Shown here in pieces: positions 4,904 through 33,075 of a stretch of 33,995 nucleotides of DNA. The notes under the pieces are model-generated. The model searched no databases. It was given only the letters and a program-made list of their open reading frames with translations, and had not been told where the DNA came from. The position numbers and the translations under genes were made by a program. The number at the start of each line of letters is the position of its first letter. Position 1 is the stretch's first letter. Source of the DNA: Deltaproteobacteria bacterium (GTDB taxonomy: Bacteria; Lernaellota; Lernaellaia; JACKCT01); contig JADLEX010000010.1 in the NCBI GenBank assembly GCA_020845895.1, positions 1 through 33,995 of the forward strand, given 5' to 3'.

Positions 4904-4990
4904 AGCGAATCGCGAGGATGCGACCCCGACTGACGCATCGCGGGTGGAAATGTGGACGGGGCTGCGCCCTGGAGGATTTCCCTGTCGATG

Positions 4991-4999
4991 TGCTATAGA
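4991..4999 (+). promoter_or_regulatory. extended -10 promoter of the restriction-modification cassette
   Basis: TGCTATAGA is an extended -10 element (TGn followed by TATAGA). Its expected transcription start is at or next to the ATG at 5009, so the methylase mRNA would be leaderless or nearly so. No convincing -35 element or Shine-Dalgarno is visible. Confidence 0.5.
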
Positions 5000-5008
5000 A
5001 TCCCTAAC

Positions 5009-6178
5009 ATGGAATCCCCCGTCGCCATCAGACCGAATGGCCGCGCAAACGGTGCGGTCCAGCAACGTCAAGTGAGCGATCGAGACCCGAGGCCGGGCGC
5101 GTTTCGATTCATCGACCTCTTTGCGGGGATCGGCGGACTTCGAACCGGGTTCGAGGCCATCGGCGGTACATGCGTCTTCACGTCGGAGTGGAACGAGTAC
5201 AGTCGGCGAACCTACTTGGCCAATCACCGAGTGGATCATCCCATCGCGGGGGACTTAACGCGCATCCGGGAGAGTGAGATTCCCGATCACGACGTGTTGC
5301 TCGCGGGCTTTCCGTGCCAGCCGTTCTCGATCGCCGGGGTTTCCAAGAAAAATGCTCTGAAGAGACCGCACGGTTTTCAATGTGAGCTACAGGGGAATCT
5401 CTTCTTCGACGTTGCGAGGATTCTGGCTTTTCATCGACCGCGCGCCTTTCTCCTGGAGAACGTCAAGAATCTCGTCAGTCACGACGGCGGAAAAACGTTC
5501 CGCGTCATCCATCGGACGCTGACGGAGGATCTTGGGTACCGGATTCACTGGCGCGTCATCGACGCCAAGCCTTGGGTTCCGCAACACCGGGAACGGATCT
5601 TCATCGTGGGCTTTCGCGAGCCAAGCGACTTCTCATTGGACGATCTCCGCGCCCCGACCGCTTCGAGCGGACCGACGCTCTCCGCAGTCCTTCATCCGGA
5701 AGACGGAAGCGAAGTCGTCGAACCTCCGTACACCGTTGGACCTCGCGGTGCCGTCTCGCCGAAATACGGACTCAGCGAGCACCTGTGGAACTATCTTCGT
5801 GAATACGCCGAGAAGCATCGCGCGAAGGGCAACGGATTCGGATTCGGTCTCAACGGTCCGGGGGACGTCGCAAGGACTCTGTCCGCCCGATACTTCAAGG
5901 ATGGCTCGGAAATCCTGATACGGCGCGCGGGGAAGCAGACGCCGAGGCGACTTACGCCACGGGAGTGCGCCCGCCTGATGGGCTTCGACCGACCGGGGCG
6001 CGAACCGTTTGTCATTCCGGTGTCCGACACGCAGGCATATCGACAGTTCGGCAACGCCGTGGTCGTGCCCGTCGTGGAGGCCGTCGCAAGGTGCATGGCC
6101 CCGTATATCGGGGGTGAAGAGACGGTGTCGCCGCCGGTTCGGTCTCGACGGATACAACTGGGCTTGGGCATTGGCTGA
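5009..6178 (+). CDS. DNA (cytosine-5) methyltransferase, Dcm/M.EcoRII-like
   Basis: A 389-residue C5-cytosine methylase using S-adenosylmethionine. Motif I is [19 protein letters not shown] (about 34-52). Motif IV is [11 protein letters not shown] with catalytic Cys103. Motif VI is ENVKNL (150-155), motif VIII is [11 protein letters not shown] (192-202) and motif X is [12 protein letters not shown]. The stretches [41 protein letters not shown] and [15 protein letters not shown] closely recall Dcm and M.EcoRII, which methylate the inner C of CCWGG; that specificity is inferred. The start at 5009 is preferred over 4952 because the promoter lies between them. A GTG at 5072 is possible and would also keep every motif. 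The end overlaps vsr by 8 nt. It protects the host against the endonuclease two genes downstream. Confidence 0.95.
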
Positions 6179-6629
6179 CATTCTCGATCGTGCATCCAGA
6201 AGCCGTCTGATGTCGGGGATTCGTTCGAAAAATACCCGGATCGAGATCAGTCTCCGCCGGGGTCTGCACGCGCGGGGATTTCGGTATCGCCTCCATGACC
6301 CGAAGATCCCCGGCAGACCGGACCTCGCATTTCCGAAATACGGTGCGACGGTCTTCATCAACGGCTGCTTCTGGCACGGTCACGACTGCGAGTTGTACCG
6401 GCTCCCGAAAACCCGAACTGAATTCTGGCGAAAAAACATCGAAACGAATGTCCAACGGGACCATCGGGTAAAGACGGAATTGGCCAAGCTTGGATGGCGT
6501 CAATTCGTGATCTGGGAGTGCTCCATCCGCGGAACTGGTCGGAGGGATTTCGACGCCGTCATCGACAATGTCGCCGCGTGGTTGCGTTCCGTTCGCCACT
6601 TCGGGCAAATCCGGGGTCGCCGGACATGA
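6171..6629 (+). CDS. vsr: very-short-patch repair (T:G mismatch) endonuclease Vsr
   Basis: A 152-residue Vsr nuclease that nicks 5' of the T in T:G mismatches left by deamination of 5-methylcytosine. The TTG start at 6171 is chosen because it gives [22 protein letters not shown], the usual Vsr N terminus, and overlaps the methylase stop (6176-6178). With this start, residue numbers agree with E. coli Vsr as I recall it: catalytic Asp51 in GRPDLAF, His69 and Trp68 in CFWHGH, and zinc ligands Cys66, His71, Cys73 and Cys117 (IWEC). Position 64, His in the E. coli enzyme, is Asn here (FINGCFWH). It is translationally coupled on both sides, to the methylase and to the endonuclease (ATGA overlap). 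Confidence 0.94.
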
Positions 6630-7858
6630 CTGCCTCCCGCGAACTTCGAAGTTGGCTGGATGACATGTCAGGGATTCCGGCTGTATGGTTTTCGAAGCGC
6701 CTGTCCGCCAACGACACCAAGGCCTCGGGCGGCCATCAGGCGGGACCGTACCTCCCAAAGGACGTCTTCTTCCGCGTGTTTCCGGGTCTTCACCGCGAAA
6801 CGGACCTCAATCCGGAGACGTCGATCCGATTCGACATCGATTCCCATGCAGACACACGTCAAGTGAGAGCCATCTGGTACAATAACAAGTTCCACGGCGG
6901 GACGAGGGACGAAGCGCGGTTGACGCGCTTCGGGGGCGGCTCCTCAGCTCTGCTGGACCCCGACAACACGGGTGCGCTTGTTCTGTTCGCTTTCGTCGCC
7001 GCTGCCGACGGACAACACCTTCATTGCCGCGCATGGGTCTGCCGCTCAGCTGTCGAGGAAGAACACGCATCCGAAAGATTCGGCGTCGTGGACCCCGGAG
7101 AGTGGATATCGTGGACGACCGACGGAGTCTGGGCCGCACACGGTCTTCACACTCCCGGGACGGCCCGCGCAGACTGTCGCTTGACCCCGGCCGAGATTCC
7201 TCCCGAGTGGCTAAGAGGGTTTCCACGTGCGACGGAAATCGTTCGCCGGGCCGTCGAACTGCGCCCGTTACGTCATCTGGATGTTGACGCCCGGTTGCTG
7301 CGTCGCCGCGACTGTGAATTCGAGATTTTCCGCAGCCTGGAAGAAACCGTCGAGTTGCCCATCGTTCAGCGAGGGTTTCCGACACTCGATCAGTTCCTCG
7401 AACGCGCCCAGACGATCCTTCAACGTCGAAAGGCCCGATCGGGTCGGTCGCTGGAATTGCACGTGCGGGAAATCCTGATCGAGGAGGGCCTTCGGGAGCA
7501 CGAGGACTTTTCGTATCAACCCGAATCGGACCCAGGAAAACGGCCGGACTTCTTGTTTCCATCGGAGAGTTCTTACAAGAACGCGGCGTTTGACCCTCGC
7601 GCTCTGCGCATGCTGGCCGTGAAAACGACGTGCAAGGACCGTTGGCGCCAGATCATCAACGAGGCCGATAGGATTCCGCGAAAACACCTCCTGACCCTTC
7701 AGGAGGGCATTTCCGAAAACCAGTTTCGCGAAATCTCGGGTGCTGGTGTCACGCTGGTCGTTCCGACCGGTTTGGTCAAATCCTACCCGCCCGCGATCCG
7801 GGCGTCTCTCTTGCCTCTTTCCGCTTTCGTCGGCGAAGTTCGCCCTCCCTCGCGCTGA
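6626..7858 (+). CDS. type IIE restriction endonuclease, EcoRII-like
   Basis: A 410-residue restriction enzyme; from memory EcoRII has about 404 residues. The N-terminal effector DNA-binding domain (about 1-180) has KRLSANDT and GGHQAGPYLPK, then IWYNNKFHGGTRDEARLTRFGGGS and DPDNTGALVL. The C-terminal PD-(D/E)xK catalytic domain (about 270-410) has RRKARSGRSLELH (Glu277), KRPDFLFPS (Asp308) and LRMLAVKTTCKDRWRQI (Lys333), followed by TLQEGISENQFRE. Both domains recall EcoRII, which cuts before CCWGG and needs two sites. The ATG at 6626 overlaps the vsr stop by 4 nt. No frameshift is seen and the active-site residues are present, so the enzyme is probably functional. It completes a methylase-Vsr-endonuclease cassette. 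Confidence 0.94.
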   Translation: MTASRELRSWLDDMSGIPAVWFSKRLSANDTKASGGHQAGPYLPKDVFFRVFPGLHRETDLNPETSIRFDIDSHADTRQVRAIWYNNKFHGGTRDEARLTRFGGGSSALLDPDNTGALVLFAFVAAADGQHLHCRAWVCRSAVEEEHASERFGVVDPGEWISWTTDGVWAAHGLHTPGTARADCRLTPAEIPPEWLRGFPRATEIVRRAVELRPLRHLDVDARLLRRRDCEFEIFRSLEETVELPIVQRGFPTLDQFLERAQTILQRRKARSGRSLELHVREILIEEGLREHEDFSYQPESDPGKRPDFLFPSESSYKNAAFDPRALRMLAVKTTCKDRWRQIINEADRIPRKHLLTLQEGISENQFREISGAGVTLVVPTGLVKSYPPAIRASLLPLSAFVGEVRPPSR

Positions 7859-12309: not shown

Positions 12310-12778
12310 ATGTCGCGTCATCGCTGGCGGATTCGGCTGCATGCAGGGGTTCGTGGGGTGAACACAGATTTTGCCGATGCGGCGGGTCGACACTGGACCG
12401 ACGCCGAGACGCTCTTCGACGCGAAACGCTGGCCCAACGCCGATCAGCTCTACGGGTTCGCCGCCGAATGCACATTGAAGGCGATCATGGTCGGGCTCGG
12501 AATGAGTGTTGTAGCTGACCGACCTCAGTATCCAAGTCATCGAGTGCACATCGACAAGCTCTGGAATGAGTTCCGTACATTCGCAGCCGGGCAAGTCGAA
12601 TGGTGCCCGATACGCCGCGATGCTTCCCTCGGATAATCCCTTCAACGACTGGCTCGCAAGCCAGCGTTACTGGCATTCGCGCCATGTCGGTCAGCCAACC
12701 GCGATCGCTCATCGACAAGCGGCACGCGATATTCGGTCGATTTTCGACCAAGCGACAGTGGACGGGACAGAGCCATGA
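12310..12778 (+). pseudogene. HEPN-like domain protein, frameshifted in this sequence
   Basis: Two overlapping frames encode one protein. The first (12310-12636) has HWTDAETLFDAKRWPNADQL followed by YGFAAECTLKAIM, the pattern of HEPN helices. The second (to TGA at 12776-12778) continues as NGARYAAMLPSDNPFNDWLA and QRYWHSRH. Crossing over near 12585-12600 (removing one base around CAAGTCG) gives a continuous protein of about 155 residues. The second frame is supported because its stop overlaps the ATG of the next gene at 12775 (ATGA). HEPN proteins are often RNases or toxins; RYWHSRH could be an R-x5-H type motif but this is not certain. The indel may be a sequencing error, real decay or a programmed shift; I cannot tell which. 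It is the first gene of a three-gene operon. Confidence 0.65.
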
Positions 12779-14112
12779 ACATGCCCCCCATGACATTCGA
12801 CGCGATTCCCGACAGCCTGCGCGCTCTGGTATCGGAGCACCGGGATCGGCTCGGCGATCTTGAATGGATCGCCGCGATTCGCGATCTCTGGAGCCGAGTG
12901 CGGTTCGTCGTCCCGAAGCGGCCTGACGAGGATAGCGATCTCGGCCGGGCGCTGACCGCGTTTGCGGAAGAAGCGTCGCAACGCCTCGACCGACATGGCT
13001 ATCCAACCGGTCAGGCCATCCTCTACGCCGATGAAATGGCAATCGATTTCAATCCCGAGCAATTTCCCGGCATCACTCTCGATTGGGATGAACCAAGATT
13101 ATTCCTGATCGACCGGCAAGTCTCCGGGCTTTCCTGGGGAACCGTGAATCGAGATCCCGACGATACGTCGCCTGATTTTGTGCCGCCTCGTCGAATCGCG
13201 TTCTATTCCATCAAGGGCGGCGTCGGGCGTTCGACCTCGGCTGCTGTCGCCGCGTGGCATCTGGCGCGTGAAGGAAAGAACGTACTCGTCGTTGATCTCG
13301 ACCTCGAAGCGCCGGGCCTTTCGTCGAGCCTCTTTCCCCCGGCAAATCAACCTCCTTTTGGGATCGTCGACTGGTTTGTCGAGGACGCCGTAGGCCAAGG
13401 CGACACAGTATTGCCTGATATCTCCGCGAGGTCGCCACTCGCAACCAACCTGCCGGGATACATCCGGGTCGTGCCTTGTCATGGAGCGAACCCCACACAG
13501 TACCTCCCTAAACTCGGGCGCTGCTATCTCGACCTGCAGCGGGACGGAAAGCTCGAATCTTGGGAGCGGCGGTTGGGTCGTTTTATCGAAGCTCTCGAAG
13601 CCGTGCACAAACCCGATCTCGTGCTGCTGGACGCTCGCGCCGGGCTCTCGGACTTGGCTTCCGCGGTCGTAACGGACCTTCAGGCAGAGGTCTTCCTCTT
13701 CGCGATCGGAACGACGCAGACCTGGTCAGCCTATCGTCTGCTGTTTGAAGAGTGGCGAGGGACTCGCGCGATTCTCGACCTGCGTGAGCAGCTTCATCTC
13801 GTGGCGGCACTCGTTCCGGAAACGGATCGAGAATCCTATCTCACGCAGTTCCGACAAGAGGCGTGGGATCTCTTTCGCGATCATGCGTATGACAACGTTG
13901 AGCCAGACGCTCCTGCCGATGCAGACCTTTTCACCTTCGATCTCGATGCGGTAGACGGTCCGCATTCACCAATCCCCGTGTATTGGAACCGAGGTATCGC
14001 CGCACTGAGCAACCTCTCTGAGTTGGATCCGCAGCTAGTTGCCGCGTCGTACTCAACGTTTCTCAGCAGTCTGGATCGTTGCGTCGAGGCGATGCTCGGG
14101 GCGAGCAAATGA
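12775..14112 (+). CDS. ParA/MinD-like ATPase with KGGVGR variant Walker A
   Basis: A 445-residue protein. An N-terminal region of about 140 residues with no recognised motif (helical, then YADEMAIDFNPEQFPG) precedes a SIMIBI-type P-loop domain. The deviant Walker A is SIKGGVGRSTSA (Lys147 to about Ser153), where the usual KGGxGKS lysine is replaced by Arg. VLVVDLDLEAPGL supplies the Walker A' Asp, and DLVLLDARAGLSDL the Walker B-like strand. The Arg variant keeps the first (signature) Lys, so ATP binding is possible but hydrolysis may differ from ParA. It is flanked by 4-nt overlaps with the HEPN gene and with the next NTPase gene, so the three products are probably made in proportion. There is no parB-like gene or parS-like repeat, which argues against plasmid partition. 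Confidence 0.88.
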   Translation: MNMPPMTFDAIPDSLRALVSEHRDRLGDLEWIAAIRDLWSRVRFVVPKRPDEDSDLGRALTAFAEEASQRLDRHGYPTGQAILYADEMAIDFNPEQFPGITLDWDEPRLFLIDRQVSGLSWGTVNRDPDDTSPDFVPPRRIAFYSIKGGVGRSTSAAVAAWHLAREGKNVLVVDLDLEAPGLSSSLFPPANQPPFGIVDWFVEDAVGQGDTVLPDISARSPLATNLPGYIRVVPCHGANPTQYLPKLGRCYLDLQRDGKLESWERRLGRFIEALEAVHKPDLVLLDARAGLSDLASAVVTDLQAEVFLFAIGTTQTWSAYRLLFEEWRGTRAILDLREQLHLVAALVPETDRESYLTQFRQEAWDLFRDHAYDNVEPDAPADADLFTFDLDAVDGPHSPIPVYWNRGIAALSNLSELDPQLVAASYSTFLSSLDRCVEAMLGASK

Positions 14113-15592
14113 CGCCCTTTCAAGTTGACCCGAAGAGCGCCCGTCAGTCGATTCTGGAAACGATCCCTGACAGCACTTCACTTCATGGAAGACCGCCCGA
14201 GGTGCGTTTCAGCTACGTACCCGCATCCCACGCCAAGGCGCTCGACTTGGATACGCAGGTCGTCGTCGGCATGCGCGGCACTGGCAAAAGCTTCTGGCGG
14301 CGCTTCAGAGCGCCGAGCATCGATCTCTGCTCGCTCAGCGTTCCAGCCAACTGGGCATCGTGGAAAATGCCTCCATCGCCGCGGGGTTTGGCGAGGAACC
14401 GCAGCCCGATTGGTATCCGCAACGCGACGTGCTCCGTCAACTTCTCGATTCGAAATTCGAACCGCGACTCATCTGGCGCACGGTCATTCTACAAGCTCTG
14501 GCCGGGGGCGATCCGCAAGTGGTCGGCAGCGGACGGAGTTGGGCGGATCGAGTGACTCATGTGAAGCAGCAGCCCGAATGGATTGAGCGGTTTCTTTACG
14601 ATAGGGATCGCACGTTCGAGAGCGAAGGAAAGTCATGGGTTATCCTTTTCGATGCTTTGGATCGCACCGCCTCGGACTGGCCGACCATGAACGAGCTGGT
14701 TCGCGGGTTGCTTCAGGCGGTGCTCGACCTGAGGCCGTACCGTCGCCTACGAGCCAAGTGCTTCCTTCGCACCGACCAACTCAACGAGAGCGAAGTCGCA
14801 ACATTTCCAGATGCGTCCAAGCTCATGGCCGAAAAGGCTGAGCTCGACTGGCCTGCTAACGAACTTTACGGGCTGCTTTTTCAGTACATGGGAAATGCGC
14901 GCGATGGGGCCTTTCGTAAGGCGATCGAAAGCGAGTCTTGGTTTAAGTGGCCTCAGATCGAGGGAACGGACGAATCCGTCGCGTGGTTGCCGCCAAGCAG
15001 TCTCCGTCACGATGCAGAGCTTCAGCGCAGAGTGGTTCACACGATTACCGGCCCTTGGATGGGGCGAGACCGCCGTCGGGGTGATCCCTACACCTGGATT
15101 CCCAACCATCTGGCCGATTCGCAGGGCAAGACCAGTCCCCGATCCTTCTTGGCCGCACTGCGGCATGCTGCCGATGAAACGTCGAAACAATACCCGGAGC
15201 ACGAATACGCCCTCCACTATGAGAGCATCAAACGCGGCGTCCAGAAGGCGAGTGAGATTCGGGTTAGAGAGTTGCGCGAGGACTACCCATGGGTTGACAC
15301 GTTGATGAAACCCCTGAGGGGAAAGGTGGTTCCCTGCGATTTCGCCGAAATCGAGTCGGTTTGGGACGAAGTTCTCATGGAACTTCGGAGTCGAGTAGAG
15401 CAGCAGGTCGAGCGCCTTCCGCCCGCCCAACTCGCCGCAGGTGCCGAGGGCGTGCGCCGCGATCTCGAGAATTTGGGAATTTTTTTCAGAATCAAGGACG
15501 GCCGCGTGAATGTCCCGGATGTGTACCGACTTAGCTACAATATTGGGCGCAAGGGTGGCGTTCCGCCGGTGCGTCGAGCGAGTGCCGGCTGA
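14109..15592 (+). pseudogene. P-loop NTPase (STAND/KAP-like), frameshifted after Walker A
   Basis: A protein of about 494 residues read from two frames. From the ATG at 14109 (ATGA overlap with the previous gene) the frame runs through VVVGMRGTGKSFW, a Walker A with Lys60. It then derails into Arg-rich sequence. The frame that runs to 15592 reads, from 14297, AALQSAEHRSLLAQRSSQLG and continues with Walker B SWVILFDALDRTA and KCFLRTDQLNESE. Adding one G after the TGG at 14295-14297, or a -1 slip there, joins them smoothly. The FLRTD segment followed by ELDWPANELYGLLF resembles KAP/STAND-type ATPases. The C-terminal half has no recognised domain. It may sense or power the system; its effector is unknown. 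Confidence 0.7.
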
Positions 15593-15980: not shown

Positions 15981-17519
15981 GTGCGTAAGATCGTGTTTGC
16001 GGTTCCGCGCGAGGAAGACCCCGTCATCTTCGCCTATGCGCCGCTCGCCATTCTGAGTCTCGCCAAGCAGGTGAAGCTGGCCGGGTTCGAGCCCGTGATT
16101 CTCGATGCCAAGCAGATCAAGGACGACTTTCTCCCCCGGCTGGAGAAGGAGTTTCGCGACGACCCCGTGCTGCTGTGGTGCTCGGGCAAGACCGGCCGCC
16201 AGCTCAAGGACCTTTGCGACGCGGGCCGACTGGCGAAGCAGATCAACCCCGACCTGCCCGTCGTCTTCGGCGGCTGGCACGCGCAGATGGCGGTCGATTC
16301 CACGCTCAACACCCCGTACGTGGACTACGTGGTGAAGACGCAGGGCGAAACGACGCTGCCCGAGCTGGCGCGGCGTTTCGCGGCGCGCGAGGACGTGACG
16401 GGGATGGACGGCGTGTCGGGCAAGTCGCCGGACGGGCGCACGTGGCACGGCAAGGAGGTCGATTGGGTCCGCGAGCTGGACACCTTCGGCCCGCTGCCGT
16501 GGGAGATGGTGGACATGGAGTTCTACATCACCGGCGACAACGGCCGTTGCCAGCCGATGGTGGTGGGCGCCAAGCGCACGATCAACTACACCTACTCGCG
16601 CGGCTGCCACGGCATGTGCAGCTTCTGCCACATCACCGCGCTGTGGAACCGCGGGTGGTTTTCGCAGACACCCAAGTTCGTGCTCGACGAGATCGGCCGG
16701 CTCGTGAACGAGTTCAAGGTGGAAGGCATCGACTTCCACGACTCCAACTTCTTCACGGGCCAGAAGCGCGCCATGCAGATCGTGGACGGCATCATCGAGC
16801 GCGGCTACCAGTTCATCTGGAAGTGCTCGGTGCGCGCGGATCAGGTCAACGCGATGTCCGACAGCGAGATGGAACGCATCACGAAGGCCGGCTGCACCGA
16901 GTTCGCCATCGGCGCCGAGGGCGGCACGAACCGCGTCATGGGGCTCGTGGCGAAGGAGATCGTGCCCTCGGACGTCATCGAGTGCTCGCACCGGTGCGCC
17001 AAGTGGGGCATCCTGCCCGAGTACTCGTTCATGGTCGGTTTCCCCGACGAGAAGAATTGGGACGACTCGAAGGCGACGCTGGCGTTCATGGCGCGGCTGC
17101 GCCAGATCGCGCCGAACGCGCTGGCCGAGTACTTCTACTACACGCCGTTCCCCGGGACGCCGCTGTTCAAGGACTACGCCCAGCGCTTCATGCCCAAACA
17201 CGAGACGCTGGAGGACTACGTCAACTTCAGCACCTACGCGCCGAACATGCCGTGGGTTGACGACAAACTCCCCGTGCTACTAAAAATGGCCACGCGCTTT
17301 TATTTCAAGTTTGCGATCCCGAACTCGGACCTGCGACGTAAGATGGCCCAGAAGAACCTGATGGGCTTCGGGCTGCGGATGATGACTCGGATCTCGAACT
17401 GGCGGGTTCAAAAGCGCGTGTACGCCTTCCCGATCGAGTACCGGCTGGCACGGTTCGTCAAGGACGTGCTGATCGGCAAGCTCGGCGTGATGAAGAAGGT
17501 GGCACAGGAGGTGGCGTGA
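15981..17519 (+). CDS. radical SAM protein with N-terminal B12-binding-like domain
   Basis: A 512-residue radical SAM enzyme. Residues about 1-135 form a cobalamin-binding-like Rossmann domain (LLWCSGKTGRQLKDL, VVFGGWHAQMA). The radical SAM core starts at YSRGCHGMCSFC, whose Cys209, Cys213 and Cys216 bind the [4Fe-4S] cluster. Downstream are GIDFHDSNFF, SVRADQVNAM, EFAIGAEGG and EYSFMVGFPDE, typical of the B12-radical SAM class (BchE/methyltransferase-like, cd02068-type). It lacks the free-B12 DxHxxG signature in plain form. Substrate unknown: such enzymes methylate or rearrange lipids, antibiotics or cofactors. Start GTG at 15981 after CGGAGG. The 3' end overlaps the acyltransferase gene by 4 nt (GTGA), so the products likely act in one pathway. 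Confidence 0.92.
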   Translation: MRKIVFAVPREEDPVIFAYAPLAILSLAKQVKLAGFEPVILDAKQIKDDFLPRLEKEFRDDPVLLWCSGKTGRQLKDLCDAGRLAKQINPDLPVVFGGWHAQMAVDSTLNTPYVDYVVKTQGETTLPELARRFAAREDVTGMDGVSGKSPDGRTWHGKEVDWVRELDTFGPLPWEMVDMEFYITGDNGRCQPMVVGAKRTINYTYSRGCHGMCSFCHITALWNRGWFSQTPKFVLDEIGRLVNEFKVEGIDFHDSNFFTGQKRAMQIVDGIIERGYQFIWKCSVRADQVNAMSDSEMERITKAGCTEFAIGAEGGTNRVMGLVAKEIVPSDVIECSHRCAKWGILPEYSFMVGFPDEKNWDDSKATLAFMARLRQIAPNALAEYFYYTPFPGTPLFKDYAQRFMPKHETLEDYVNFSTYAPNMPWVDDKLPVLLKMATRFYFKFAIPNSDLRRKMAQKNLMGFGLRMMTRISNWRVQKRVYAFPIEYRLARFVKDVLIGKLGVMKKVAQEVA

Positions 17520-18712
17520 CGCCGTGGGACTTCCGGTTTGAACTGGTCGACAGACCGGAGCAGTTCGACAATCTGAAAACCGAATGGGATCGGCTGTTGA
17601 CGAATTCGACGGCCGATCCTTTGTTTTGTTCGCACGTGTGGATGCGAACGTGGTGGAACCATTTCGGCGACGACGGCGAGCTGCGGATCCTGACCGCGCG
17701 CGACGCCGAGGACGGCCGGCTCGTCGGTATCGCGCCTTTTTTCCTGAGGCGAATTGCGGCCGCCGAACTCGAAGCCGAGATGACCGGCGGCGTGCGTCCC
17801 ATCATTCCCACGCGCGGAATGAAACTGCGCGTCCTGCAACCGCTGGGGTCGGGCGAGGTCTGCGCCGACTTCGTCGGCTTCATCGCCGAGCGCGGGCGCG
17901 CGGACGAGATCTGGTCGGCGCTTTACACATATTTTTTGCGCGAGGTGGGCGAGTTCGACCTGCTCGACATGACGCACGTGCGCGACGACGAGCCGGGCTT
18001 CGAATCGCTTCAGTACGCGGCGATGGGCGGGCGCAATTGGCGCTACCGTCCCCTCTATCAGGCACCGTATTCGGAATTGCCCGAGGGGGGTTACGAGGCG
18101 TATCTGGAGTCGCTCTCGAAGAAGAGCCGCTACAACGCCCGCAAGAAGATCAAGGAGATCCGCATCTACCACAAGGTGGAGCACCGGTTTCACGACGACG
18201 CGGCGACGCTGCCCGAAGCGATGGACCGGTTCTTCGACCTTCACGCGCAGCGCTGGGCCGCCGAGGGGCAAACCGGCGTCTTCGCGTCGGAGAAGATGGC
18301 GGCGTTCCACCGCGATTTCGCCGCGCGCGCGCTTCGTCTCGGCTGGCTGCGGCTCGGCTTTTTGTCGCTCGACGACGAGCCGCCGATCTTCGCGACCTAC
18401 GCGTTTCACACGGGCGACGCGGTGTACCTGTACCAGCAGGGCAGCGCGCCGGTGTATCCCGAGTTCAATCTCGGCTACGCTGCGCTCGTGTTCGCGATTC
18501 AGGACGCATGCGAGCGGGGCGCGCGGCGATACGAGTTCTTGCGCGGCGAGGCCGACTATAAGCTGCACTGGGCGAAGAACGGCCACCCGCTGATCCAGTT
18601 TCTGGCGGGCGCGACGTTTCGGGGCACGCGGTTTTTCGCGCGCTCGTTCATCAACACCGATCCGCGCGTGCGCCGCGCGGTGAAACGGATTGTCCTGAGA
18701 GGTCGCCGTTGA
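17516..18712 (+). CDS. CelD/FemAB-like GNAT-family acyltransferase
   Basis: A 398-residue protein of the GNAT superfamily branch found in CelD, FemAB-like and BioF2-like proteins. The N-terminal half has FCSHVWMRTWWNHFGDDGELRI, typical of the family's first domain. The C-terminal half has SKKSRYNARKKIKEI, then DLHAQRW, FATYAFHTGDAVYLYQQGSA, NLGYAALVFAIQDACERG and YEFLRGEADYKLHW, which is the usual acyl-CoA or aminoacyl-tRNA fold signature. Likely transfers an acyl or amino-acyl group onto a sugar, lipid or peptide. Start GTG overlaps the radical SAM stop; its own stop overlaps the next start (TTGA). Confidence 0.88.
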   Translation: MTPWDFRFELVDRPEQFDNLKTEWDRLLTNSTADPLFCSHVWMRTWWNHFGDDGELRILTARDAEDGRLVGIAPFFLRRIAAAELEAEMTGGVRPIIPTRGMKLRVLQPLGSGEVCADFVGFIAERGRADEIWSALYTYFLREVGEFDLLDMTHVRDDEPGFESLQYAAMGGRNWRYRPLYQAPYSELPEGGYEAYLESLSKKSRYNARKKIKEIRIYHKVEHRFHDDAATLPEAMDRFFDLHAQRWAAEGQTGVFASEKMAAFHRDFAARALRLGWLRLGFLSLDDEPPIFATYAFHTGDAVYLYQQGSAPVYPEFNLGYAALVFAIQDACERGARRYEFLRGEADYKLHWAKNGHPLIQFLAGATFRGTRFFARSFINTDPRVRRAVKRIVLRGRR

Positions 18713-21066
18713 ACGCCGCCGCGCCGAAAACAGCCGCCATCAAGACCGGCCCGGTCCGCGTCTCCCCACCGCCGTCCCCCGCGCCGTGGATCACCCCCGC
18801 CACGTTCCTGATGGCGTGCGCCACGCTCGCCGCCGAGATCATCCTCACGCGCGTGTTCTCGGTGCTCATGTGGTACCACTTCGCGTTCCTCGCCGTGAGC
18901 GTTTGCCTGTTCGGGCTCGGGGCAGGATCGCTCGTCGTGCATCTGGCCGGGAGCAATTGGCGCGCGGGAGACCTTCCGCGACATCTGGGCCGTTGCGCAA
19001 TCGGCTTCGCCGCGGCGCAGCTCGTGTGCGTCGGCACGTTACGACTGCTGAAGCTCGGGACGCTCGACCTCAACCTCGTGTCGATCGCGCAGATGGGCGC
19101 GGCGTTTCTGGTCGCGGCGCTGCCGTTCACGTTCTCGGGCGCGTTCTTCGCGCTCGTCTTTTCGCGCGGATCCGAGCGCATCGGTCGTTACTACTTCGCC
19201 GATCTCGCCGGGGCCGCCGCCGGGTGCCTCGCCACGATTTCGCTGCTGACGCATTTCGGCGGCGAGGCGGCGATGGTCGCCACGGGCGCAATCGCGCTGT
19301 TGGCGGGGCTCGTCGTCACGCCCATGCGGCGCGAGGCCGCCACGTGGCGCGCGCAGCTCGTCGCGCTGGTCGTGGTCGTCGCCGTACTGGTCGCCAACCA
19401 TTGGTCACCGTTCCTGATGTTCCGCCACACCAAGGGCAACGACGAGCCCGAGCCGATCGCCGTGTCGTGGAACAGCTTTTCGCGCGTCATCGCGTATCCG
19501 CGCGCCGACATCGGCGACATCATGCTCGTCATCGACGGCATCGCGTTCACGCCGATTACGCCCTTTCACGGCGACGCGAACGCGACGCAGGACGCCATGG
19601 CGAACCTGCAGCGCCTGCCCTACGTTTTTTACGACAAGCCGTCGCTCCTCGTGATCGGTTCGGGCGGCGGCGAGCACATCCTCACGGGGCTGTCCGCCGG
19701 AGCGAGCGAGATCGTCGGCATCGAGATGAACCCGATCGTGCTCGACATGGTGAACAACCGCTTCGCCGACATTTCGGGTGGGCTCTTCACGCAGCCCGGC
19801 GTCACGGTGGAACTCGCCGAAGGGCGCTCGTGGGTGGCGCGATCGACGAAAAACTTCGACGTCGTCAACTTCACGCTCGTGGATACCTGGGCGGCGACGG
19901 CGGGGGGCGCGTTTTCGCTCACCGAGAATTACCTGTTCACCGCCCAGGCGTTCGGCGAATACTTCGACCGTCTCACGCCGCGCGGCATGGTGGCGGTGAA
20001 ACGCTGGAAGGACGCGCCGGAATACATCTACCGCACCGTCGCGCTCGCGCGGCACGTGCTCGACGCGCGAAAGACGAAGAACGTGGCATCGTGCTTCTAC
20101 GTCGTGCGCGACGGCGACTTCGCCAACGTGCTCATCAAGCCGTCGGGTTTCAGCGTCGAGGAGGTGCTGCGTCTCGAGGATCTCGTCAAGACGCTCGACC
20201 TGGAAATCATGTACTCGCCCTTCATGAAGCCGCACGACGAGACACTGGACGCCATGCTGCGCGCGGGGAACCTCGACGCGTGGGTCGCGACGCAGGAGTA
20301 CGACTACTCCGCGCCGACCGACGACCATCCGTTCTTTTTCTACACGCTTCGCCCCGCCGATCTTCTCAAGACATTCTCGCAGGACTACGCGGCCAAGATC
20401 CGCAACATCGGCGCGCTCATCGTCTTCGTGCTCGCGGCGCTCGTCTTCGCATTCGTGTCGATCATGATCCTCGGTCCGCTCGTGCTGGTTCGTCGCCATC
20501 GCATTCTGCTGCGCGGGCATCTGCGCGCGGCGAGCTATTTCGGGCTCATCGGGCTCGGCTACCTCACGGTCGAGATCGCGATGATGCAGTCGTTCATCCT
20601 CTACCTCGGCCATCCCACGCTCACGCTCTCGGTGTTTCTCGCGACGTTGCTCGTGATGAGCGGCATCGGCGCGGGGCTGTCGTCACGCATCGGCGCCGAG
20701 CGCCCGCGCAAGTCGCTCGCCCTCGTCACCGTGGCGCTCGTCGGCGTGGCGGCGGGGCTGCTGATCGTCTCGCCGAAGATTTTCGCGGCCACGCTCGGCG
20801 CGGCCACGCCCGTGCGCATCGCGGTGTCGATCGTGATGCTCGCGCCACTGGGCATTTTGATGGGAATGTTTTTCCCGATGGGTGTGCGCGCGGTGCGCGA
20901 GGACGGCACGGTGCCGTGGATGTTCGCGGTCAATTCCGCGGCCTCGGTGTTCGGCTCGGTCGCGGCGATGGCGATCGCACTGCTGGCGGGATTCTCGACG
21001 ACGGTCACGTTCGGCCTCGCGGCCTACGTCGTCGCGGCGATCATTTATCCGAGTGAAGACGAATAG
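18709..21066 (+). CDS. membrane protein with internal spermidine-synthase-like SAM domain
   Basis: A 785-residue fusion. The N-terminal part (about 25-225) has several transmembrane helices (TFLMACATLAAEIILTRVF, AAFLVAALPFTFSGAFFALV). Residues about 240-520 form a Rossmann domain of the aminopropyltransferase (SpeE) type: VIGSGGGEHILTGL (about 313-326), GIEMNP and the acidic NFTLVDTWAAT. The C-terminal part (about 560-780) has six further helices. Membrane-bound SpeE-like proteins are widespread, and their reaction is usually unknown. The start is TTG at 18709, overlapping the acyltransferase stop; this is weak as a start, and an ATG further in would lose N-terminal residues. The operon partners suggest it modifies or transports the same product. 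Confidence 0.85.
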   Translation: MNAAAPKTAAIKTGPVRVSPPPSPAPWITPATFLMACATLAAEIILTRVFSVLMWYHFAFLAVSVCLFGLGAGSLVVHLAGSNWRAGDLPRHLGRCAIGFAAAQLVCVGTLRLLKLGTLDLNLVSIAQMGAAFLVAALPFTFSGAFFALVFSRGSERIGRYYFADLAGAAAGCLATISLLTHFGGEAAMVATGAIALLAGLVVTPMRREAATWRAQLVALVVVVAVLVANHWSPFLMFRHTKGNDEPEPIAVSWNSFSRVIAYPRADIGDIMLVIDGIAFTPITPFHGDANATQDAMANLQRLPYVFYDKPSLLVIGSGGGEHILTGLSAGASEIVGIEMNPIVLDMVNNRFADISGGLFTQPGVTVELAEGRSWVARSTKNFDVVNFTLVDTWAATAGGAFSLTENYLFTAQAFGEYFDRLTPRGMVAVKRWKDAPEYIYRTVALARHVLDARKTKNVASCFYVVRDGDFANVLIKPSGFSVEEVLRLEDLVKTLDLEIMYSPFMKPHDETLDAMLRAGNLDAWVATQEYDYSAPTDDHPFFFYTLRPADLLKTFSQDYAAKIRNIGALIVFVLAALVFAFVSIMILGPLVLVRRHRILLRGHLRAASYFGLIGLGYLTVEIAMMQSFILYLGHPTLTLSVFLATLLVMSGIGAGLSSRIGAERPRKSLALVTVALVGVAAGLLIVSPKIFAATLGAATPVRIAVSIVMLAPLGILMGMFFPMGVRAVREDGTVPWMFAVNSAASVFGSVAAMAIALLAGFSTTVTFGLAAYVVAAIIYPSEDE

Positions 21067-21089
21067 CGGCATTTTCGGAGATCAACGTC

Positions 21090-21974
21090 GTGACGAAAAA
21101 AGTCTGTCTGGTGACGGGCGCGAATTCGGGCATCGGCAAGGTCACCGCGACGGCGCTCGCCAAGACCGGCGCGCACGTGGTGATCGTGTGTCGCGACATG
21201 GCCAAGGCCGAGGCCGCCGCCGCCGACATCCGGGTCCGTGCGGGCGCCGGCGCGGGCACGGTCGAGCCGCTCGCGTGCAATTTCGGCTCGATGGCGCAGA
21301 TCCGCGAGCTGGCCGCCGCGTTTCTCCGTCGCCACGACCGCCTGCACGTGCTCGTCAACAACGCCGGGGCGCTAATCGGCACGCGCACCAAGAGCGCCGA
21401 CGGACTCGAACTCACGTTCGCGGCCAACCACCTCGGGTATTTTCTGCTCACGAATCTGCTGCTCGATGTCCTCAAGGCGTCGGCCCCCGCGCGGATCGTC
21501 AACGTCGCGTCCGACGCGCATTACCGCGTCAAGCAGGGGCTCGATTTCGACGACCTGCAGAACGAGCGGCGCAAATACGAGGCGTTTCGCGTGTACTCCG
21601 AATCGAAGCTCGCGAACGTCTATTTCACGTACGAGCTCGCGCGGCGGATCGACGGTACGGGCGTGACCGCGAACTGCCTGCACCCCGGCGTCGTCGGCAC
21701 CAACTTCGGTCACACGGCCACGTGGTTCTGGAAGACGGCGATGGCGCTCGGCAGACTCGTGCTCATCACGCCCGAAGAGGGCGCGAAGACCTCGATCTAT
21801 CTCGCGACTTCTCCCGATGCGGCGGGCGTTTCGGGCAAGTATTTCGACAAGTGCAAGCCGCGACGCACATCCATCGTCTCGTACGACGAGGCCGCGATGC
21901 GCCGCCTGTGGGACGTGAGCGCCCGGCTCACGGGTTTGCCCCGAACCGCGAATGGAACCGGCGCGGGGAGCTGA
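21090..21974 (+). CDS. short-chain dehydrogenase/reductase, retinol-dehydrogenase-like
   Basis: A 294-residue NAD(P)-dependent SDR. TGANSGIG (residues 9-16) binds the cofactor, NNAG follows near residue 90 and VNVASDA holds the catalytic Ser strand. YSESK (Tyr near 169) is the active-site YxxxK. NCLHPGVVGTNFGH is the loop typical of retinol dehydrogenase/WW-oxidoreductase-like members. Start GTG at 21090 after a CGGAG site, 24 nt after the previous stop, so it may belong to the radical SAM operon. Substrate unknown. Confidence 0.88.
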   Translation: MTKKVCLVTGANSGIGKVTATALAKTGAHVVIVCRDMAKAEAAAADIRVRAGAGAGTVEPLACNFGSMAQIRELAAAFLRRHDRLHVLVNNAGALIGTRTKSADGLELTFAANHLGYFLLTNLLLDVLKASAPARIVNVASDAHYRVKQGLDFDDLQNERRKYEAFRVYSESKLANVYFTYELARRIDGTGVTANCLHPGVVGTNFGHTATWFWKTAMALGRLVLITPEEGAKTSIYLATSPDAAGVSGKYFDKCKPRRTSIVSYDEAAMRRLWDVSARLTGLPRTANGTGAGS

Positions 21975-27777: not shown

Positions 27778-28218
27778 ATGTTCGACGTCGGCGGTTCCGA
27801 AATCCTGCTGATTCTCTTTCTCACGCTGCTCGTGATGGGGCCGAAGAATATCCCCAAAATCGCGCGCACGCTGGGCAAGACCATGCAGCAGGTCCGTCGC
27901 GTCACCAACGAATTCAAGCACGCGATGGAAGACGAGATCCGGGTGCTGGAACTCGAGGAACTCAAGGCCGAACGCGCCTCGACCGTCGCCAAACGCCCGA
28001 CCGAACCCGTCGCCGCGAGAACCGCCACGGCCGAATCCGATTCCGCGTCTCCCTCGCCCGCGACGTCGACGGAGCGTGTGGAGTCCCCCGTGGAGACCGT
28101 CGAGACCATCGATCCGGCGGCCGATATCCCCGTCGAGCGCGAGCGCACGGGCGCGCGTCCGGTCGTGCCGTCGACCGAGACGGTGGCACGCGGCGCGGAC
28201 GATGGAGGTGCGGCGTGA
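27778..28218 (+). CDS. tatB: Sec-independent (Tat) translocase protein TatA/TatB
   Basis: A 146-residue protein. It starts MFDVGGSEILLILFLTLLVMGPKNIPKIART, which is the N-terminal membrane helix, Pro/Gly hinge and amphipathic helix of TatA/B. The length, the MFD start and the polar Glu/Thr/Pro-rich tail fit TatB better than TatA, but the two are hard to separate by eye. The ATG at 27778 is chosen over 27667 because upstream residues are Arg-rich and would spoil the membrane N terminus. It overlaps tatC by 4 nt. Carries folded proteins, such as Fe-S enzymes with twin-Arg signals, across the inner membrane. Confidence 0.87.
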   Translation: MFDVGGSEILLILFLTLLVMGPKNIPKIARTLGKTMQQVRRVTNEFKHAMEDEIRVLELEELKAERASTVAKRPTEPVAARTATAESDSASPSPATSTERVESPVETVETIDPAADIPVERERTGARPVVPSTETVARGADDGGAA

Positions 28219-28997
28219 CCGGGCGCGACGGCGAGCTCGCCGGCCACATGACGCTGACCGAGCACCTGACCGAGCTGCGCAAGCGGCTGCTGTGGTGCGC
28301 CGGGGCGATCGGCGTGTGCTTTTTCGCCGCATGGAATTTCGCGCCGCGCATCTTTGCGCTCTTCATGGAGCCGCTCACGCGCGTGCTGGGCGAGGGCCGG
28401 CAGGTCGTGTTCACCTCGCCCGCCGAAGCCTTCATCACCTACATGAAGGTCGCGGTCACGGTCGGCGTCTTCGCGTCGGCGCCGGTGATCTTCTGGCAGA
28501 TCTGGCGCTTCGTCGCGCCGGGACTGTACAAGCGCGAACGTGCGTATTTCGGCGCGGTGGTGATCGTCGGTTCGTTCTTCTTCGTGGGCGGCGCGCTGTT
28601 CGGCTACTTCGGCGTGTTCCCCGTCGGCTTCGCCTACTTCATCAAGACGTTCGAGACCGAAACGATCCGCGCCATGATCAGCGTGAAGGAGTACTGGAGC
28701 TTCGCGCTGACGATGCTCGTGTGCTTCGGCATCGCGTTCGAGCTTCCCGTTTTCGTATTCTTTCTGGCGCGCGTCGGCATCGTCACGCCGCAGTGGCTGT
28801 GGAAAAACTTCCGCTACGCCGTGCTCGTCATCTTTATCGGGGCGGCGATCTTCACGCCGCCCGACATCATTTCCCAGATCACGCTCGGCGTGCCGCTCGT
28901 CATACTCTATCTGCTCGCGACCGGGGCGGCGTATCTGTTCGGCTCGCGCGGCAAAACGGCCGACGCGACAAACGCCGCCGACATGGCCGAAGAGTAG
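28215..28997 (+). CDS. tatC: Sec-independent protein translocase TatC
   Basis: A 260-residue polytopic membrane protein, the twin-arginine signal receptor. It has MTLTEHLTELRKRLLW at the N terminus (the conserved E-L-R-R/K-R region) and the signature FTSPAEAFITYMKVA. Next come QIWRFVAPGLYKRER and, in the later helices, FGIAFELPVFVFFLARVGIVT and AAIFTPPDIISQITLGVPL. Six helices are expected. Start GTG at 28215 overlaps the tatB stop and has GGAGG at 28203-28207; an ATG at 28249 is an alternative but less well placed. It ends 6 nt before the convergent rhomboid gene. Confidence 0.96.
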   Translation: MTGRDGELAGHMTLTEHLTELRKRLLWCAGAIGVCFFAAWNFAPRIFALFMEPLTRVLGEGRQVVFTSPAEAFITYMKVAVTVGVFASAPVIFWQIWRFVAPGLYKRERAYFGAVVIVGSFFFVGGALFGYFGVFPVGFAYFIKTFETETIRAMISVKEYWSFALTMLVCFGIAFELPVFVFFLARVGIVTPQWLWKNFRYAVLVIFIGAAIFTPPDIISQITLGVPLVILYLLATGAAYLFGSRGKTADATNAADMAEE

Positions 28998-32022: not shown

Positions 32023-33075
32023 ATGTCCATTGCCGCGACGACCGTGAACGAGATGTTTGAGCGCATGCGCGAGCGCCTGGCGCGACTCGTGCCCGAGGCC
32101 GAACTGCGCCTCAAGGCCGAGATCGCGTTCGAGGTCAACCGCATCAAGGCCGAGCGCGGGGCGATCATCCTGGGCCACAACTACATGGAGCCGGCGCTCT
32201 TCCACTCGGTCTGCGACGTGGTCGGCGATTCGCTGGAACTTTCGCGACGCGCCGCAGCGGCGAGCGCGGACCCCATCGTGTTTTGCGGCGTGCGTTTCAT
32301 GGCCGAAACCGCGAAAATCCTGAACCCCGAACGCACCGTGCTTTTGCCCGCGAAAAAAGCCGGTTGCTCGCTCGCCGACGGCATCACCGCCGAAGATGTG
32401 CGCCGGTTGCGCGAGGCGTATCCCGGCGTGCCGATCGTCACCTACATCAACACCTACGCCGACGTGAAGGCCGAGGTGGATGTGGTCTGCACGTCGGGCA
32501 ACGCGGAGCGCGTGGTGAACGCGCTCGACTCCGACCTCGTGATTTTTTTGCCCGACGAATACCTGGCGCGAAATGTCGCGGCCGAAACGGGCAAGACGAT
32601 TCTCGTGCCGAGCGGCGAGTTCGACGCGCTCGAAGACGTGCGCGCGCGCGGCATCGGCATGATCGGCTGGCGCGCGCGCTGCGAGGTCCACGAAAAATAC
32701 ACGGTGGATGACATCGCGAACGTGCGCCGCCAGTTCCCCGACGTGTACGTGCTCGCGCACCCCGAGTGCAGCCCCGAGGTCGTCGCGGCGTCCGACTATT
32801 CGGGCAGCACCACCCAGATGGTGCGTCAGGTGAAGGAACACGACGCGGCTCATTACCTGCTGCTCACCGAATGCAGCATGGGCGACAACATCATCGCCGA
32901 AAATCCCGAGCGCGACATTTTGCGGATGTGCTCGGTGCGTTGCCCGCACATGAACGAGATTACGCTCGAGAACGTGCTCGACTCGCTGCGCCACGACGTC
33001 GAGATGATCGAGGTCGAGGAGTCGGTGCGCGTGCGGGCGAAGAAATCACTCGACCGCATGCTGGCGATCGGGTGA
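32023..33075 (+). CDS. nadA: quinolinate synthase A
   Basis: A 350-residue [4Fe-4S] enzyme that condenses iminoaspartate with dihydroxyacetone phosphate to form quinolinate, for de novo NAD synthesis. Motifs include GAIILGHNYMEPALFHSVCD, FCGVRFMAETAKIL, KKAGCSLADG (Cys115), YINTYADVKA, VVCTSGNA, LPDEYLARNVA, HPECSPEVV and the Cys303/Cys307 tail MCSVRCPHM. Cluster ligands are expected among Cys115, Cys220 (RARCEVHEKY) and Cys303/307. The start ATG at 32023 follows AGGAG; an upstream ATG at 31966 would read into the repeat and is rejected. nadB and nadC are not in the window. Confidence 0.96.
   Translation: MSIAATTVNEMFERMRERLARLVPEAELRLKAEIAFEVNRIKAERGAIILGHNYMEPALFHSVCDVVGDSLELSRRAAAASADPIVFCGVRFMAETAKILNPERTVLLPAKKAGCSLADGITAEDVRRLREAYPGVPIVTYINTYADVKAEVDVVCTSGNAERVVNALDSDLVIFLPDEYLARNVAAETGKTILVPSGEFDALEDVRARGIGMIGWRARCEVHEKYTVDDIANVRRQFPDVYVLAHPECSPEVVAASDYSGSTTQMVRQVKEHDAAHYLLLTECSMGDNIIAENPERDILRMCSVRCPHMNEITLENVLDSLRHDVEMIEVEESVRVRAKKSLDRMLAIG

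Follow-up and report, generated by a model that had tools for sequence, protein, structure and literature searches.

A conserved gene string encoding a cobalamin radical-SAM protein, a tandem-GNAT transferase and a membrane protein of spermidine-synthase fold in Lernaellota, with a possible role in surface-glycan tailoring

A literature search on bacterial membrane proteins resembling spermidine synthases yielded only two useful precedents. The closer one, NHMT (AN4663), is the seven-transmembrane N-terminal histidine methyltransferase of Aspergillus, which resides in the endoplasmic reticulum, is genetically required for methylation and acts on secreted proteins, and whose seven-helix domain is found in fungi only (PMC10349129). 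Spermidine synthesis requires the acidic residue of the GxG(D/E)G motif, which binds decarboxylated S-adenosylmethionine (dcSAM), and its loss from NHMT was taken by the authors as an argument against this activity (PMC10349129). The second precedent is SpeE2 from the ISS locus of Pseudomonas, an 11-gene plant-interaction locus; SpeE2 is a membrane-anchored, spermidine-synthase-like protein with altered active-site acids (T556, E624 and P627 as replacements), for which only N-terminal helices were reported (PMC7298707). Here we compare both, by their published descriptions, with the product of gene C in a window of 33,995 nucleotides of DNA from a member of FEN-1099, the candidate phylum that GTDB now names Lernaellota (contig C10 of genome G000, an assembly of 4.98 Mb in 171 contigs). 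In this window, gene C follows genes A and B, which encode a cobalamin-binding radical-S-adenosylmethionine (SAM) protein and a tandem-GNAT transferase, and is followed by gene D, which encodes a short-chain dehydrogenase/reductase (SDR).

The A-B-C operon and its conservation

The A-B-C operon is real and conserved, and it brings known parts together in a new way. The genes studied and the overlaps between them are as follows.

15981-17519, + strand: gene A, cobalamin-binding radical-SAM protein (class B type), 512 amino acids
17516-17519, + strand: A/B overlap of 4 nucleotides (GTGA), formed by the stop of A and the start of B
17516-18712, + strand: gene B, tandem-GNAT transferase (Acetyltransf_6, FemX/CelD-like), 398 amino acids
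18709-18712, + strand: B/C overlap of 4 nucleotides (TTGA), formed by the stop of B and the start of C
18709-21066, + strand: gene C, membrane protein with a spermidine-synthase-fold domain, 785 amino acids, TTG start
21090-21974, + strand: gene D, SDR, 294 amino acids

A preliminary description of the window had grouped these four open reading frames (ORFs) into one operon. The ORFs, the gene identities, the two overlaps and the close coupling of A, B and C were all borne out, while the spacing between C and D, given there as 24 nucleotides, measures 23 (21067-21089). Scans for promoters and terminators gave no signal above that of shuffled sequences.

To follow the genes through the phylum, seven genomes were compared (G000 to G006, including the host G000). 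A, B and C are contiguous in five of them (G000, G002, G004, G005 and G006), which cover two families, and B and C are found together in six. In other genera and in the second family the three proteins are 43-68% identical to those of the window (A orthologs 49-68% and B orthologs 43-60%, each in five genomes), and since the string persists at such identities while the flanking genes change, its conservation is more than chance. The 4-nucleotide B/C overlap was seen again in G001, G002 and G006. In G002, both A and C are interrupted by frameshifts or stops, which are perhaps sequencing errors. G003 encodes a C homolog of only ∼34% identity, and the search of the seven genomes found no B ortholog in it. 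Outside the phylum, no A-B-C neighbourhood was found when profiles of A, B and C were each run against ∼380 further genomes, nor at 78 named C loci; at one C locus (L227) a weakly similar radical-SAM gene lies close by.

Separation of the genes in related genomes, the outcome that the preliminary description had named as telling against it, was observed in one of six genomes for A and in every relative for D. The product of D matches adh_short of Pfam (4e-31), and its gene adjoins A-B-C solely in this window; the closest homolog, 60% identical, is unlinked to the trio in G006. D was therefore rejected as a member of the conserved unit, and the proposed four-gene operon is reduced to A-B-C.

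The product of A combines a B12-binding domain (Pfam, 3e-14) with a Radical_SAM domain (8e-11) carrying the cluster motif C209-x3-C213-x2-C216, in which the three cysteines are invariant, and it thus belongs to the class B (cobalamin) radical-SAM proteins defined by these two domains and a Cx3Cx2C motif. As enzymes of this class mostly methylate and some members form or rearrange rings, the reaction of A cannot be fixed from its sequence. The best scores against curated models were obtained for BchE, ApyD and HpnJ. Domain order is the same in this group, but A lies far below every cut-off (110 bits against 481 for BchE, 77-86 bits against 578 for HpnJ), which places it outside the named equivalogs, and its gene context is different. 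With 46 sites similar to gene A, the host genome is unusually rich in B12/radical-SAM genes; four radical-SAM matches share one open frame of 2371 codons at 54222-59315 of contig C17, which may encode a giant protein in which radical-SAM domains are repeated in tandem, and contig C158 offers a similar case with 2077 codons.

The product of B matches Acetyltransf_6 (6e-26; 91.7 bits, above the gathering cut-off of 22), as do FemX/FemABX and CelD-type proteins. With three sequences as input, AlphaFold2 gave a low-confidence model (predicted local distance difference test, pLDDT, 66), and among solved structures it is matched best by FemX enzymes and other tandem GNATs. A sequence search of the PDB with B returned nothing significant. 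B differs from FemX in that identity is only ∼12% and the context of B is not one of peptidoglycan genes.

Gene C and its relatives

The main interest of the operon lies in the family of C, which appears to be an outward-facing protein of SAM-binding fold. C has no Pfam match and only a weak NCBIfam match to aminopropyltransferases. A model calculated from an alignment of 65 homologs (pLDDT 89.8; predicted template modelling score 0.91) consists of 7 helices, a soluble domain (residues ∼251-545) and ∼7 further helices. The best Foldseek matches of the soluble domain are the aminopropyltransferases 1uir, 3anx and 1inl (E values to 1.5e-8), which identifies the spermidine-synthase fold. NHMT likewise has seven helices ahead of a domain annotated as spermidine synthase and has lost the motif acid; it differs in being fungal, in the absence of a second helix bundle and in the residue that replaces the acid, which is Ile in NHMT and Gly in C.

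When aligned to 1inl, the dcSAM-binding acid of GxG(D/E)G corresponds to G320 of C, and glycine (GxGGG) occupies this position in all 65 homologs. The catalytic Asp that closes strand 4 corresponds to T389 in an ungapped alignment, with Ser in 54 of the 65 homologs and Thr or Ser in most; D392 (64/65) could stand in for it with a small shift of the alignment. SpeD, which supplies dcSAM, was detected in none of the seven Lernaellota genomes, while the control search was positive in 8 of 14 known genomes. Since SpeD is absent and the dcSAM-binding acid is lost, the prerequisites of a conventional aminopropyltransferase are missing, and C is very unlikely to be one. The SAM motif itself is retained: glycines G317, G319, G320 and G321 are present in 65/65 homologs, and the acidic residue after strand 2, E339, in 64/65. 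E339, R373, D392 and E406 are each conserved in at least 64 of 65, and the loop after strand 4, which keeps D392, T393, A396, G400, A401 and E406, looks catalytic. Methyl transfer is the likeliest activity of C.

The side of the membrane on which the soluble domain lies was assessed by counting lysine and arginine residues per loop in the 65 homologs, for which the model supplied the helix limits; no control protein was included. On one side, mean counts were 2.1, 2.2, 1.4 and 2.2 for the loops of the N-terminal half and 3.3, 2.2, 2.1 and 1.0 for those of the C-terminal half, compared with 0.0, 1.0, 0.3, 0.1, 1.6 and 0.3 on the other. The excess on the first side was found in 65/65 homologs, and in 62/65 when the flanks of the domain were added to the other side. 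Under the positive-inside rule, this would place the soluble domain in the periplasm, and the scarcity of cysteine in it (0.20%, compared with 1.06% for the membrane part) fits this orientation. The SAM-fold domain is thus probably periplasmic, as judged from loop statistics on model-derived helices.

Several charged residues within the helices or next to them (E43, R48, H57, D165 and E622) are near-invariant and might make up a conduit or a site for the substrate. We tentatively suggest, as a possibility with well below an even chance of being right, that C and its relatives are outward-facing SAM-dependent methyltransferases, in which the periplasmic domain would bind SAM and the membrane bundles with their charged residues would carry SAM or its methyl group across, for the methylation of flipped glycans, lipids or secreted proteins. 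If true, this would be a general bacterial route to methylate molecules outside the cytoplasm. To our knowledge, SAM is not known to be available there, and a literature search on periplasmic methyltransferases found nothing relevant.

The same helices could be read differently, with C as a transporter or flippase in which the domain of spermidine-synthase fold is SAM-like but inactive and has a regulatory role. The two polytopic halves that flank the domain in the model and the near-invariant charged residues would suit such a protein; the conservation of the SAM-motif glycines, of E339 and of the catalytic-looking loop argues against an inactive domain, as does the genetic requirement for the seven-transmembrane NHMT in methylation (PMC10349129), and we consider this explanation rather improbable.

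Homologs of C were found in 69 of 386 sampled genomes (E ≤ 1e-60) and in many named phyla; one carrier is the cultivated cyanobacterium Argonema antarcticum (locus L159). Proteins of this kind are therefore widespread, and they are easily mistaken for spermidine synthases. A-B-C provides a first possible pathway context, that of surface-glycan tailoring, in which a substrate of C can be sought.

Surface-glycan context and alternative explanations

In G004, G005 and G006, which form one family, the first gene after C encodes a Wzx flippase of the Polysacc_synt/MATE type. A GT4 glycosyltransferase gene comes next in G004 and G006, and in G005 its ortholog is located elsewhere in the genome. Further on, all three genomes carry a gene for a polysaccharide-deacetylase-like protein.

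Deacetylase-like proteins of G004 to G006: L046, 5594-6313; L047, 5847-6548; L048, 6772-7470 (-)

Wzx, GT4 and deacetylase-like genes are also features of Wzx/Wzy-dependent polysaccharide clusters; next to A-B-C itself, neither Wzy nor Wzz could be recognised. The genomes with strong orthologs of Wzx and GT4 are precisely the six in which B and C lie together, to the exclusion of G003, so that the two pairs share one presence pattern; with seven genomes, this co-occurrence is suggestive only. Outside the phylum, the top homolog of A (G315, locus L239; E = 5e-82, homologous over almost the full length) lies after a MurJ-type flippase gene, in a cluster that also encodes a Wzz-like protein, a Wzy_C ligase, a GT4 protein, a GNAT and a polysaccharide deacetylase; this cluster differs from the Lernaellota loci in having no B and C orthologs. 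Several further homologs of A stand among apparent sugar-nucleotide genes, as judged by eye from N-terminal sequence, and several distant homologs of B are near GT4 genes. The operon also points to an unassigned branch of B12-radical-SAM proteins whose members sit among polysaccharide genes.

Because Wzx, GT4 and deacetylase-like genes follow A-B-C in one family and the G315 homolog of A belongs to a Wzz/Wzy/Wzx cluster, the explanation we favour, at about an even chance, is that the trio serves to tailor a lipid-linked surface glycan, such as an exopolysaccharide or an O-antigen-like polymer. The substrates, the order of the steps and the activity of C as a methyltransferase are what we infer in the following scheme. 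A would carry out a cytoplasmic cobalamin/radical reaction, with either the glycan or the lipid that carries it as substrate, most likely a C-methylation or a ring rearrangement, and B would add an acyl or aminoacyl group. The GT4 protein and Wzx, whose genes adjoin A-B-C in one family and are located at other sites in the second, would extend and flip the intermediate, which may then be methylated by C at the membrane in a SAM-dependent reaction.

Several observations weigh against glycan tailoring. In G001, B and C are kept together and the A ortholog (68% identical) is on a different contig. In G000, G001 and G002, the orthologs of Wzx and GT4 lie side by side at a site of their own, unlinked to A-B-C, and the co-occurrence described above rests on a single absence, that in G003, among seven genomes. 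The deacetylase-like proteins of G004 to G006 do not have the usual CE4 histidine motif and show GCEIAxMTDxxxDPW instead; they are perhaps not deacetylases. Finally, C homologs in other phyla have no recurring neighbours beyond a few small clusters.

A pathway like that of HpnI, HpnK and HpnJ, which make the bacteriohopanetetrol cyclitol ether through glycosyltransferase, deacetylase and radical-SAM steps, was considered as an alternative. The GT4 protein would transfer an amino sugar onto a membrane lipid for deacetylation by the deacetylase-like protein, A would rearrange the sugar ring to a cyclitol, and B and C would decorate the product. HpnJ is among the nearest characterised relatives of A, and the GT4 and deacetylase-like genes lie downstream of A-B-C in G004 and G006, but the score of A against HpnJ falls far short of the cut-off, the CE4 motif is missing and the deacetylase-like gene is not seen at the Wzx-GT4 pair of the other family. 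On balance, such a pathway is unlikely.

The substrate could also be a protein or peptide, with A acting on a ribosomal peptide or an exported protein in the manner of ApyD, B ligating an amino acid and C methylating the exported product. ApyD is close to A by score, B resembles FemX, which is an aminoacyl-tRNA-dependent enzyme, and the fungal NHMT methylates secreted proteins (PMC10349129). However, no conserved small precursor ORF was present in the gene calls around A-B-C, in which very short ORFs were not searched for, and the neighbours in G004 to G006 are glycan genes, so that we give this explanation little credence as well.

A polyamine pathway, in which C would be an aminopropyltransferase whose product is modified by A and B, could draw on the fold of the soluble domain of C and on B being a GNAT, but it is highly improbable and was rejected owing to the absence of SpeD and the loss of the dcSAM-binding acid, to which the Thr or Ser at the catalytic-Asp position in most homologs can be added. 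Of the modified lipid, polyamine or glycan product suggested in the preliminary description, lipid and glycan are hence best supported, while polyamine fails.

Further genes of the window

The remaining observations concern genes of the window outside A-D. An EcoRII-like restriction-modification pair at 4952-7858 (+) consists of a C5 cytosine methyltransferase and an EcoRII-type nuclease. Upstream of A, at 12775-15592 (+), lies a match to a candidate defence pair of PADLOC: the gene at 12775-14112 (+) matches the member PDC-M28B, and the PDC-M28C match, which opens at 14109 and has a Walker A motif (GMRGTGKS) there, continues in another frame (ORF 14360-15592), so that it appears frameshifted. 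Ordinary genes are those at 27778-28997 (+), where TatC is preceded by a small ORF that resembles TatA/TatB by eye, and the gene at 32023-33075 (+) for quinolinate synthase NadA.

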